NCBI RefSeq assembly: GCF_014205845.1
Contig: NZ_JACHCR010000010.1
Coordinates: forward strand, 143,961 to 207,960
Source: Mucilaginibacter cryoferens
GTDB lineage: Bacteria; Bacteroidota; Bacteroidia; Sphingobacteriales; Sphingobacteriaceae
Length of the DNA stretch: 64,000 bases
Reading direction: 5' to 3'
Shown: in pieces, positions 39,346 through 42,290 of the stretch
How the letters are laid out: every line of letters begins with the position of its first letter
How positions within the stretch are numbered: position 1 is the stretch's first letter
Notes under the pieces: model-generated
Told to the model about the DNA's origin: nothing
Databases searched by the model: none
Seen by the model: the letters and a program-made list of their open reading frames with translations, nothing else
Translations under genes and position numbers: made by a program

Positions 39346-40323
39346 TTAGTTAAAATATTCGCGTTGATATTTATTACGGTAATCCATAGGGGATAAGCCG
39401 GTAATGCGCTTAAAAGTAGTGCGAAATGCTTTATTATCGGTATAGCCAACATTGTACATTACCTCATTTACATTATCACGTGAGGTTTCCAGGCTTGCTT
39501 TGGCGGCTTCTATTTTTACACGTTGAATATACTCGGCTACGGTATTGGCTGTTGCTTTTTTAAACCGACGTTCCAGGTTTCGCCTGCCTAAAGCAAACAT
39601 AGATGCCAGCTGTTCTACACTTATTTTCTCCTGGTAGTTTTTCTCAATAAATTCCTGCGCTTTTTTTATTGGATCATCGCTATGGTCTTTTTGTCCCTGG
39701 AAAATTATAAATGATGATTGACTGGTGCGCTCCATTTCAATAGCAAATACTTTAGAGCTTAGAATAGCCATGTCCCTGCCTGCAAATTTTTCTATAAGGT
39801 ATAATATAAGATTAAGGTAAGAGAAGGCACCTCCACTGGAGTAAATACCCTGCTCGTCGGTAATTATTTTTTCGGTTACCAGGTTAACATCCGGAAACAT
39901 GGTTCTGAATTGATTGGCTGCCATCCAATGTGTAGCGCAGCTTTTTCCTTTCAATAAACCGGTTGAAGCCAACAGGAAGGCCCCCATGCATAAACTGGCT
40001 ACTTCTGCACCGTTGTTATATTGATCTGTTATCCAGGGTAAAAAGGCCTTGTTGTTTTCAATAGCAGCCGTTATTTCGCCGTCAAGTGCGGGGATGATGA
40101 TGAGGTCGGTTTTTTTTAAATCGGAGATCAATATATTGGAGTTTACGGTGAAGCACCCACCGCTGATAGTAGTCTCTTTAGTTAGCCCAACCAATTCTAC
40201 GTTAAAAACGGGCTCTTTTCCCATTGATAGAACAAACTGGTTTACCTGGGTCAACAACTGGCGAGACCCTTCAAGACTACCTAAAATTGCACCTTTGGGT
40301 ACTAAAATGGATATATGCTTCAT
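39346..40323 (-). CDS. GlxA-type regulator (DJ-1/PfpI plus AraC HTH)
   Basis: A 325-residue regulator. The N-terminal DJ-1/PfpI-like domain (about 1-190) contains the nucleophile-elbow-like ASLCMGAFLLA (about 109-119) with a cysteine. The C-terminal two-HTH AraC domain is at about 225-325. GlxA-type proteins control catabolic or stress genes. It reads towards the MarR-GNAT gene; a shared transcript is possible but the 83-nt gap holds the MarR operator. Confidence 0.88.
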   Translation of the reverse strand: MKHISILVPKGAILGSLEGSRQLLTQVNQFVLSMGKEPVFNVELVGLTKETTISGGCFTVNSNILISDLKKTDLIIIPALDGEITAAIENNKAFLPWITDQYNNGAEVASLCMGAFLLASTGLLKGKSCATHWMAANQFRTMFPDVNLVTEKIITDEQGIYSSGGAFSYLNLILYLIEKFAGRDMAILSSKVFAIEMERTSQSSFIIFQGQKDHSDDPIKKAQEFIEKNYQEKISVEQLASMFALGRRNLERRFKKATANTVAEYIQRVKIEAAKASLETSRDNVNEVMYNVGYTDNKAFRTTFKRITGLSPMDYRNKYQREYFN

Positions 40324-41082
40324 ATCTCAAAAGTATAATAAAGCATTATTGCAAACAATATTTGTTTTGTAAACTACTTACCGGGCAACCTTATAACCCC
40401 CTCAAACGGCTAATAAAAGTATTTAAGTGATAATAAAAGTACATCTACCGTAAATAGTATTTGGCATGCCCGTAATTTAACCTATTACTTAATTTCGCTG
40501 ATGGAATTTAAGAATTGGCAGTGTTTTGGTATGCTTTTTTAAGATTTTTTGTCAGGTTATTGAGGTTTGTCATGCTTGGTGACAAAATGGCAAAAAAAAT
40601 ATTAAACTGTTAAGGGTTTTAAAAATGAGCTAATGAAGTTGTATTTCTCTGTAAAAAGCAGAAAATGAGCTTTGTTTTGAGTTCTAACTCCCTCTTTTTA
40701 TACTAATCGACTATTTTGCGGTAATAAAATCTGGGATTTTTAATATTGACAGTATTTTTAATCAACAAATTGTAAGATTTTTTTAAACTGATTTTTTCTA
40801 CTGACTAAAAAAGGTTTATTTTTTTTATCTCTTCTAAAGTGTCGTCATTTTTTTTCAAATCAACCTTCAATTTTTATCTATTACAAAATATGGCAATTTT
40901 ATTTTTTTTGGGTTTTGAGTATCGCAACCTCCAATTTTTTATGGCATGTTTTTAGTCGATTCCCGTTCAGGAAACCGAAGATGTCTATCACTTAGTCCCA
41001 TAAAAATCAGGGTATTATACGATGAATAGCGGGCTTCCCTCAAGCTATTAATAATATATAAATCACTTAAAAAATTAAAACT
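40324..41082. other. Long AT-rich intergenic region
   Basis: 759 nt without a convincing gene, T-rich, with a small TGTCA/TGACA repeat near 40572. It precedes the tandem micropeptide genes. No tRNA, riboswitch or terminator is evident by eye. Its length and position suggest it may hold the control region of the peptide array. Confidence 0.5.
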
Positions 41083-41163
41083 ATGTTAGTCGTATTAGAA
41101 GTTGCAGCCTTTTTAGCAGTTATCATTTTGCCTTTAATTCCAGCTAAAAAAGTTGCGAAATAA
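41083..41163 (+). CDS. 26-residue hydrophobic peptide, copy 1
   Basis: Encodes MLVVLEVAAFLAVIIL then PLIPAKKVAK: one hydrophobic helix with a single glutamate and a Pro-Lys basic tail. Two nearly identical copies follow at 41219 and 41347. All three are preceded by a similar AATCACTTAAAAATTAAAA-type leader. Synonymous differences between copies (for example GTC/GTT) support coding. No family is recognised; toxin-like or transport-subunit-like small membrane peptides are possible. Confidence 0.7.
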   Translation: MLVVLEVAAFLAVIILPLIPAKKVAK

Positions 41164-41218
41164 TTAGGGCTGTGTACCAGTAATAATAATCAAATAATCA
41201 CTTTAAAAATTAAAAACC

Positions 41219-41299
41219 ATGTTAATCGTATTAGAAGTTGTCGCATTTTTAGCAGTTATCGTTTTGCCTTTAATCCCGGCTAAAAAAATTGCAAAATAA
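41219..41299 (+). CDS. 26-residue hydrophobic peptide, copy 2
   Basis: Encodes MLIVLEVVAFLAVIVL then PLIPAKKIAK, differing from copy 1 at five positions, all conservative. It begins 56 nt after the stop of copy 1 and has the same leader. Its tail and start context match the other copies. Confidence 0.7.
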   Translation: MLIVLEVVAFLAVIVLPLIPAKKIAK

Positions 41300-41346
41300 T
41301 TAAAGTATCGTAACAGATATTTCAGTAATCATTAAAAGATAAGATC

Positions 41347-41427
41347 ATGTTAATTGTATTAGAAGTTGTTGCCTTTATAGCAGTTATCATTTTGCCTTTA
41401 GTTCCGGCTAAAAAGGTTGCAAAATAA
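41347..41427 (+). CDS. 26-residue hydrophobic peptide, copy 3
   Basis: Encodes MLIVLEVVAFIAVIIL then PLVPAKKVAK. It begins 48 nt after the stop of copy 2. The leader is more diverged (AATCATTAAAAGATAAGATC). A strong terminator follows 30 nt later, so the three copies probably share one transcript. Confidence 0.7.
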   Translation: MLIVLEVVAFIAVIILPLVPAKKVAK

Positions 41428-41456
41428 CTCAGGGATATTACATTTAGTTGTAATCG

Positions 41457-41491
41457 AAGATGGATAGCATGGAGCTACCCATCTTTTTTTG
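41457..41491 (+). terminator. Terminator of the peptide array
   Basis: AAGATGG-x-TAGC pairs with GCTA-x-CCATCTT followed by TTTTT, 30 nt after the third peptide stop. It also lies just past the stop of the convergent gene at 41517. Confidence 0.8.
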
Positions 41492-41516
41492 TTTAATGGG
41501 TTAGGTATTAAAATGA

Positions 41517-42290
41517 TTACTGCAACTGTTTTTGCATAAGGCGCGCTTTGCCGGTGATTTGGATTTTAGCCGCGCTGTCTACCTGCAGGGCATTAAAATG
41601 TTGCACAGGGTGTTCATCAATATTAAGGCTGCTTTTACCTTTAAGCGAATAATTAAGGGTACTAACGTGGTTGTTTTTCCAGATATTTAAATAAGAGCTA
41701 TCTGCAGCGGTAATGTTTAAATATTTGATAGAAAGATTATTAACATCGTAATGGCTCTGATCGGCAACAGTGAGTTTCAAAGAGTCGGTGCTGCCTGGGT
41801 TGTTTCCAATAGTAACCTTGGCAGAGTTAGCCCTAATCGATGAAACATTATTTGCCGAGATCCTTACAATATCACTCTCGTTATTCCAGTTTCTTACAGA
41901 GTTATCATATTTACTCTTTACACTAAATGAAATAAATAGCGTATCGTTTTTTACCGTTGTTATAAGATTGCTTCGTAATTCCTTAATAACGCTTATTGTA
42001 TTACGGCTACCGGTATTCGTTTTTTCATCGTTGTGACCCACCCAAACCCTGGCCATCCACATCCAGGTTTCGAAACCACCGTCTACCGGGATTTTTAATG
42101 AGCCATCGATAACAATATGTTTAAAAGCGGGTAATTGGGCAATGGGAATATAATCCAGAGTATTCTTCGGGTATAGATCCCTGTAGAAATTTCCGTTATT
42201 GTATTCGTTTTTTAGCAGCAGGTTGTAGGCTAGTAACGATACTGGTATGCATGTAAAAAGTATGATGATTAATTTTGTGCTGGTTTTCAT
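41517..42290 (-). CDS. Secreted/membrane-anchored beta-structured protein (DUF2807-like)
   Basis: A 257-residue protein with an N-terminal transmembrane/signal segment (residues 7-24). The repetitive beta-strand-like mature region (strands such as SVKVTIGNNPGSTDSLKLTVADQSHYDVNN) recalls the DUF2807/auto-transporter-adhesin-like GIN domains of Bacteroidetes. It is the last gene of the ABC operon, 19 nt after gntR. Confidence 0.6.
   Translation of the reverse strand: MKTSTKLIIILFTCIPVSLLAYNLLLKNEYNNGNFYRDLYPKNTLDYIPIAQLPAFKHIVIDGSLKIPVDGGFETWMWMARVWVGHNDEKTNTGSRNTISVIKELRSNLITTVKNDTLFISFSVKSKYDNSVRNWNNESDIVRISANNVSSIRANSAKVTIGNNPGSTDSLKLTVADQSHYDVNNLSIKYLNITAADSSYLNIWKNNHVSTLNYSLKGKSSLNIDEHPVQHFNALQVDSAAKIQITGKARLMQKQLQ

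Follow-up and report, generated by a model that had tools for sequence, protein, structure and literature searches.

Organization of the peptide array

Within a 64,000-nucleotide stretch of the Mucilaginibacter cryoferens genome (the window), an array of three tandem open reading frames (ORFs) of 26 codons each was examined. The ORF starts are separated by 136 and 128 nt, as an earlier note made from the sequence alone had reported, and all three lie on the plus strand in a gap of about 1.2 kb (40324-41516) between minus-strand ORFs of 325 amino acids (aa; 39346-40323) and 257 aa (41517-42290). The surroundings are thus otherwise gene-free, as the note had it, and since both flanking ORFs are on the minus strand, the 26-aa copies are located outside any neighbouring operon. 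No kdp-type gene was seen near the array when the window translations were read.

When copy 2 was used as the query against the 7-Mb genome, the other two copies were recovered with E-values of 8.8e-8 and 1.1e-7, so that their likeness is not due to chance. The leaders of the three copies, described before as similar, resemble each other mainly in the A-rich stretch before the ATG. The best 19-residue hydropathy means of the peptides (2.86-3.02) fit a predicted single membrane span, which supports their description as small membrane peptides.

The spacers 5' of copies 2 and 3 contain neither TGGCA nor a run of five T. A hairpin (41459-41483) followed by seven T was read from the sequence 3' of the last copy, and the stretch 5' of the T run folds at -14.4 kcal/mol; a consensus terminator scanner reported no terminator at the window array. 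When the folding test was applied to all 39 loci described below, window included, a terminator-like hairpin was observed 3' of the last copy in 33, one of which is the window array. By their layout, the three copies are one transcription unit, served by one box and by the single terminator already proposed (Table 1).

Table 1 Features of the array in the window
Feature	Position	Strand	Basis
26-aa membrane peptide, copy 1, MLVVLEVAAFLAVIILPLIPAKKVAK	41083-41163	+	ORF list, homology, dN/dS
26-aa membrane peptide, copy 2, MLIVLEVVAFLAVIVLPLIPAKKIAK	41219-41299	+	ORF list, homology, dN/dS
26-aa membrane peptide, copy 3, MLIVLEVVAFIAVIILPLVPAKKVAK	41347-41427	+	ORF list, homology, dN/dS
A/T-rich upstream region ending in the promoter box; putative activator-binding region	40833-40959	+	143-nt profile
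TGGCATGTTTTTAGT box, read as a sigma-54 -24/-12 promoter	40942-40956	+	pattern across loci
Predicted 5' leader, ~115 nt	40968-41082	+	start placed 26 nt past the first T of the box
Intrinsic terminator, hairpin and T run	41459-41490	+	sequence reading and folding

Coding evidence and family assignment

Each pair of window copies differs by five synonymous and four non-synonymous changes. The uncorrected ratio of non-synonymous to synonymous change (dN/dS) is 0.255-0.258, far from the value near 1 that the earlier note had named as a refutation. For a wider comparison, the first 22 codons of 44 distinct copies (of 47, from 39 loci) were used, and dN/dS was 0.33 over all pairs and 0.36 in the 629 pairs with a proportion of synonymous differences (pS) < 0.6. 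Pairwise differences at codon positions 1, 2 and 3 numbered 5106, 2175 and 9078, respectively (total 16359; pairs are not independent). Eight residues (M1, L5, E6, V7, A12, I14, P17 and L18) are invariant across the 44 copies; L5, E6 and V7 were fixed by the search and filter patterns, and the free evidence consists of A12, I14, P17 and L18 only. Judged by these substitution patterns, the 26-aa ORFs look like real genes under purifying selection.

No family was matched by the 26-aa peptides in Pfam or NCBIfam at E 1, and a profile search of PDB gave no match. PADLOC, PHROGs and the plasmid and phage sets (the last two queried with copy 2 only) also gave no match for these peptides, and a mobile-element or defence origin was dropped for this reason. 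One longer relative (see below) matched phrog_38495 at E 0.31, which was taken as noise. An earlier description of the peptides was not found among the top-ranked literature matches, a coverage that excludes subscription papers.

Distribution and copy number

With a single copy as the query (E 0.01), 6 of 201 family genomes, one of them the own genome, contained relatives. When a nine-row alignment was used at E 0.1, matches were obtained in 101 of 149 genus genomes, longer relatives included, and in 79 of 400 genomes of the order. Ten of these 79 lie outside the genus: two belong to the sister genus g3 (2.7e-13 and 4.6e-6), and the other eight have E-values of 0.001-0.09, the range to which the matches in five further genera are confined. 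Conservation in related genomes, on which the earlier note had made its claim depend, was thus observed; a search across Sphingobacteriaceae, also suggested there, yielded clear matches in 2 of 25 genera, the own one and a sister genus, and no family-wide spread.

A related-locus search of genome contigs confirmed 38 further loci from 90 pattern stretches, and their titles name Mucilaginibacter (31), Bacteroidetes bacterium (six) and Sphingobacteriaceae bacterium (one). Including the window, six of the 39 loci are multicopy, with three copies in the window and L070 and two in L053-L056. As the L070 copies have their own common C-terminus, tandem amplification, which the note had supposed and which is supported for the window, probably happened at least twice. 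Flanking genes are not conserved; the most widespread cluster among them is limited to 6 of 39 loci, and conserved neighbours were therefore dropped as a functional clue. In L072, L074, L075, L077, L089 and L090, the downstream genes form one common cluster (351-363 aa, then 293-304 aa), which may be a MoxR/Bat-type operon.

A conserved box upstream of the 26-aa genes

Upstream regions were compared in 38 loci with enough upstream sequence (L089, at a contig end, was left out). TGGCA is found 62-154 nt before the first ATG in all 38, and all 38 carry G at box position 14, within the -12 half; GG and this invariant G lie 10 nt apart. The pattern TGGCAYNNNNTTAGY precedes 28 of the 38 loci and occurs 0 times elsewhere in 700,010 bases of locus sequence (both strands), and TGGCANNNNNTNNGN precedes 37 of 38, against 0.5 expected. 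Box bases 12-15 are TAGC in 15 loci, TAGT in 14, TAGA in one, TCGN in four and GTGN in four. As a held-out check, 20 short-type loci beyond this set were inspected (19 places, because L004 is the same place as L044), and TGGCA with the -12 G was present within 170 nt in 19 of 20 (18 of 19 places). In 300 genomes of the order, the exact TGGCATGTTTTTAGYCG occurs four times, each time just 5' of a 26-aa gene.

Sigma-54 promoters have the core GG-N10-GC. The box retains their -24 GG to -12 G distance, and the consensus is quoted as TGGCAC-N5-7-TTGCT (PMC12316311). We take the box for a sigma-54 promoter whose -12 half is atypical, and infer sigma-54 control from it. A sigma-A-type promoter pattern showed no enrichment in the upstream 300 nt (1 of 38 loci vs 1.7 expected), and TAnnTTTG alone was rarer there than expected (2 vs 11).

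A 143-nt upstream profile was built from the 38 loci, so that its match to the window (3.8e-11; the only other window match had E 0.33) is to a member of its training set. Among L091-L225, E < 0.001 was reached only by the own locus, L133, and by the short-type loci L106-L110, of which L106 shares its contig with a training locus and L109 covers model positions 4-116 only. The idea that T-tracts 5' of the box curve the DNA was rejected, as no excess at 10.5 nt was found within single sequences (z -2.9). The box-anchored mean tract profile exceeded shuffles at many periods, 10.5 included, which points to conserved tract positions in related loci and not to phasing.

The own genome encodes one full RpoN (PF04552; a second match is a 36-position fragment with a stop) and has 13 PF00158 activator matches, eight of them strong. 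RpoN was found in 142 of 149 genus genomes. In the 7-Mb own genome, TGGCAYNNNNTTAGY has 14 sites, compared with five for the reversed control. Eight of the 14 fall inside ORFs called by a crude caller; the six outside include the window box and a site 107 nt before a previously missed 71-aa relative.

Longer relatives and their kinase, activator and kdp neighbourhoods

Longer peptides of 59-71 residues (alignment A3) have the membrane core of the 26-aa peptides at the N-terminal end, followed by a soluble tail of the YAINExGFLEE or LAVNExGYLE type. The window copies are matched at 2.3e-7 to 3.8e-7 by the A3 profile, which contains long relatives alone, and on this profile evidence the 26-aa peptides are homologous to the longer ones. 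With 26-aa matches counted, A3 has matches in 105 of the 149 genomes of the genus and in 37 of 301 genomes of the family; among the latter, the sole match outside the genus (G044) is the 26-aa gene of that genome. A database search with one long relative returned nine proteins, the named ones being hypothetical or uncharacterized.

Boxes were counted for 46 distinct long relatives in 50 loci (30 from the A3 genus search and 20 hand-picked regions). Within 160 nt upstream, the strict box TGGCAYNNNNTTNGY was present in 20 of 46 (0.36 expected) and YGGCAYN7G in 36 of 46 (2.6 expected). An activator gene was found in the fetched 2-8 kb around eight of the 46.

As annotated from the sequences, some long relatives are located at kinase, activator or kdp genes. 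Kinase and activator genes were called by Pfam on representatives; for kdp genes, Pfam was run on KdpA of L217 and five L223 proteins, and the rest were read from translations. In L212 and L220 the long relative stands between a kinase and an activator gene, in L200 and L211 it is 3' of a kinase gene, and in L169, L171, L190 and L198 it is directly 5' of an activator gene. L217-L219 have the order peptide, activator, 27-aa membrane peptide, KdpF-type ORF and KdpA, followed by the KdpB, KdpC, KdpD and kinase types; L217 and L218 have one additional ORF 5' of KdpD. In L222, a KdpD-type ORF and a kinase precede the peptide. The 27-aa membrane peptide (MNTIILFLAILLCSWLIFKSIDWFEKI type) lies directly 5' of the KdpF-type ORF (L217:2593-2673, L218:2177-2257 and L219:2189-2269), and that of L217 had no NCBIfam match.

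The own genome contains two kdp clusters, L223 (contig C33) and L224 (contig C13), each with a sigma-54-type response regulator near or inside it. When a tree of 15 activators was drawn, six of the eight peptide-adjacent activators (G269, G223, G159, G121, G155 and own C20) joined the two own kdp activators with support of 0.992. By this tree, three of the eight activator genes of the own genome are Kdp-type (contigs C33, C13 and C20). The loose box TGGYAYN7G precedes the kdp operon in 4 of 4 cases examined (raw count).

A 181-aa ORF follows the long relative in L017 (4137-4682), where Pfam identifies it as a GNAT acetyltransferase, and also in L091, L100, L101 and L104. Past the 181-aa ORF, L017 and L225 have a Kdp-type activator.

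Proposed function

We propose, with a probability of about one in two, that the array encodes sigma-54-induced single-pass inner-membrane peptides which modulate a partner in the membrane, perhaps as part of Kdp-type signalling. Sigma-54 use, the activator and the membrane topology are inferred, and the partner and the direction of control are conjecture. The small operon would consist of the promoter, three peptide copies and one terminator. RNA polymerase with sigma-54 would wait at the box for an enhancer-binding activator to switch the promoter on, and this activator would most likely be a response regulator of the Kdp type. The peptides would insert in the inner membrane, with the Lys-rich C-terminus probably inside and Glu6 near the opposite face, and would tune their partner, most likely a sensor kinase or transporter of the Kdp-type potassium or turgor response; the three tandem copies would raise the dose. 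Since long relatives can be found between Kdp-type kinase and activator genes, the membrane span may contact the kinase or some other component of the system, or the peptide may be an accessory product. The span might act on the kinase in the manner of MgrB on PhoQ, or the peptide might accompany the response as ZraP does for ZraSR.

A more specific version is tentative and on balance doubtful. It would have long forms built into Kdp-type kinase/activator cassettes and 26-residue forms freed and tandem-amplified, feeding back on or cross-connecting Kdp-type kinases via their membrane spans, as a sigma-54-induced family evolved in Mucilaginibacter.

Several results weigh against the proposal of sigma-54-induced, Kdp-linked peptides. 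The 26-aa genes themselves adjoin no kdp or activator genes, and the link runs via the longer relatives, of which 38 of 46 have no activator in the fetched 2-8 kb and 10 of 46 lack even YGGCAYN7G within 160 nt. Two of the eight peptide-adjacent activators (G136 and G207) fall outside the Kdp clade. Neither long relatives nor kdp loci were matched by the 143-nt profile of the 26-aa genes; an upstream element common to all three was therefore dropped, and the activator of the 26-aa genes may differ from that of the long relatives and kdp. In 29 of 38 loci the -12 half reads TAGC or TAGT, and TTGC occurs in none; L109, a short-type locus, lacks a box in the 170 nt upstream. The reversed control of TGGCATGTTTTTAGYCG occurs five times in the same 300 genomes, so it is the position of the four sites, not their number, that is evidence. 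The own genome shows little excess of TGGCAYN5TWGC over the reversed pattern (62 vs 46), and only two of 25 examined sites are outside long ORFs, neither before a family member. All 117 good-quality genomes of the genus have RpoN, whether or not they carry the peptides, which makes its presence uninformative as evidence.

Alternative explanations

The main rival holds that the peptides are sigma-54-induced envelope-stress effectors whose target is the membrane itself or protein quality control, and not a kinase or Kdp. We consider it unlikely, if still a serious competitor. The 26-aa genes stand alone among varied neighbours, which speaks for it. In F. psychrophilum, genes with sigma-54-type promoters are linked to envelope stress and protein quality control, and osmotic pressure raises them somewhat (PMC9723704); for this reason a general envelope-stress role stays the main rival. 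Against it, a connection to signalling is suggested by those longer relatives that have kinase and Kdp-type activator genes as neighbours. The "transport accessory" of the earlier note was partly right in spirit in so far as some longer relatives adjoin kdp and kinase genes; the 26-aa genes do not adjoin kdp. Another alternative would make the peptides extra KdpF-like subunits that bind and stabilise KdpFABC or another transporter, in keeping with their KdpF size class and the kdp operons next to some longer relatives. We regard this as improbable. The peptides match no KdpF model at E 1 in NCBIfam or Pfam, whereas the control KdpF of the related kdp operon L217 scores 27.9 and passes the TIGR02115 cut-off of 26.85. 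The window array is also not directly 5' of kdpA, where L217-L219 and L223, the latter from the own genome, already have a KdpF-type ORF, and the PEKF end of those ORFs is absent from the window peptides.

Size, single membrane span, tandem copies and the predicted leader of ~115 nt also recall a type I toxin array, in which hydrophobic toxic peptides are restrained by antisense RNA, and the earlier note had called the peptides toxin-like. That description found no support, and such an array is very improbable. In a pattern search of sequence, the antisense promoter pattern was seen at 0 of 38 loci (2.0 expected) and TAnnTTTG alone on the antisense side at three (11.0 expected). Predicted leaders range from 36 to 128 nt, and RNAalifold gave zero pairs on leaders of at least 80 nt, so the leader was also dropped as a structured RNA. 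The missing PADLOC, PHROGs, plasmid and phage matches, the sigma-54-like promoter and the longer relatives in kinase operons argue in the same direction. Least credible, and hardly to be expected, is a regulatory RNA under sigma-54 control that happens to hold ORFs, the transcript and not the peptide being what matters. It would fit a short stand-alone unit with a terminator, but dN/dS of 0.26-0.36, the excess of (non-independent) pairwise differences at third positions and the lack of a conserved leader fold speak against it, and Rfam gave only two matches (E 0.79 and 0.94), both far under the gathering scores.

The peptides match no Pfam or NCBIfam family, yet their promoter signature is almost exclusive to them across the examined sequence, and they are a convenient readout with which to follow the sigma-54 network in a genus of Bacteroidota. 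If the kinase link is true, they would add a micropeptide layer to Kdp-type potassium signalling, working with a sigma-54 activator.

Comparison with known systems

Ibs and Ldr are type I toxins, as is ZorO. Such toxins are, like the window peptides, small and hydrophobic and have duplicated loci; in contrast to them, the window family has no antisense promoter pattern, carries a sigma-54-type promoter and has longer relatives in kinase operons. KdpF, the small subunit of the KdpFABC potassium pump, falls with the window peptides in a size class of about 25-29 residues, going by KdpF of E. coli. It also resembles them in its single span and, via the longer relatives, kdp neighbourhood, and differs in sequence, C-terminus and in not being a stand-alone gene.

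MgrB is described as a 47-aa inhibitor of the kinase PhoQ made under two-component control (PMC8404706). As a small membrane protein it serves as a working analogy only, drawn from that description; the window peptides have 26 residues and a sigma-54-type promoter. ZraPSR combines a sigma-54-dependent response regulator with the accessory protein ZraP, called a chaperone (PMC7657598). ZraP thus differs in kind from the membrane micropeptides of the window, and the likeness lies in the arrangement proposed for them, in which a sigma-54-type response regulator would switch on an accessory gene.
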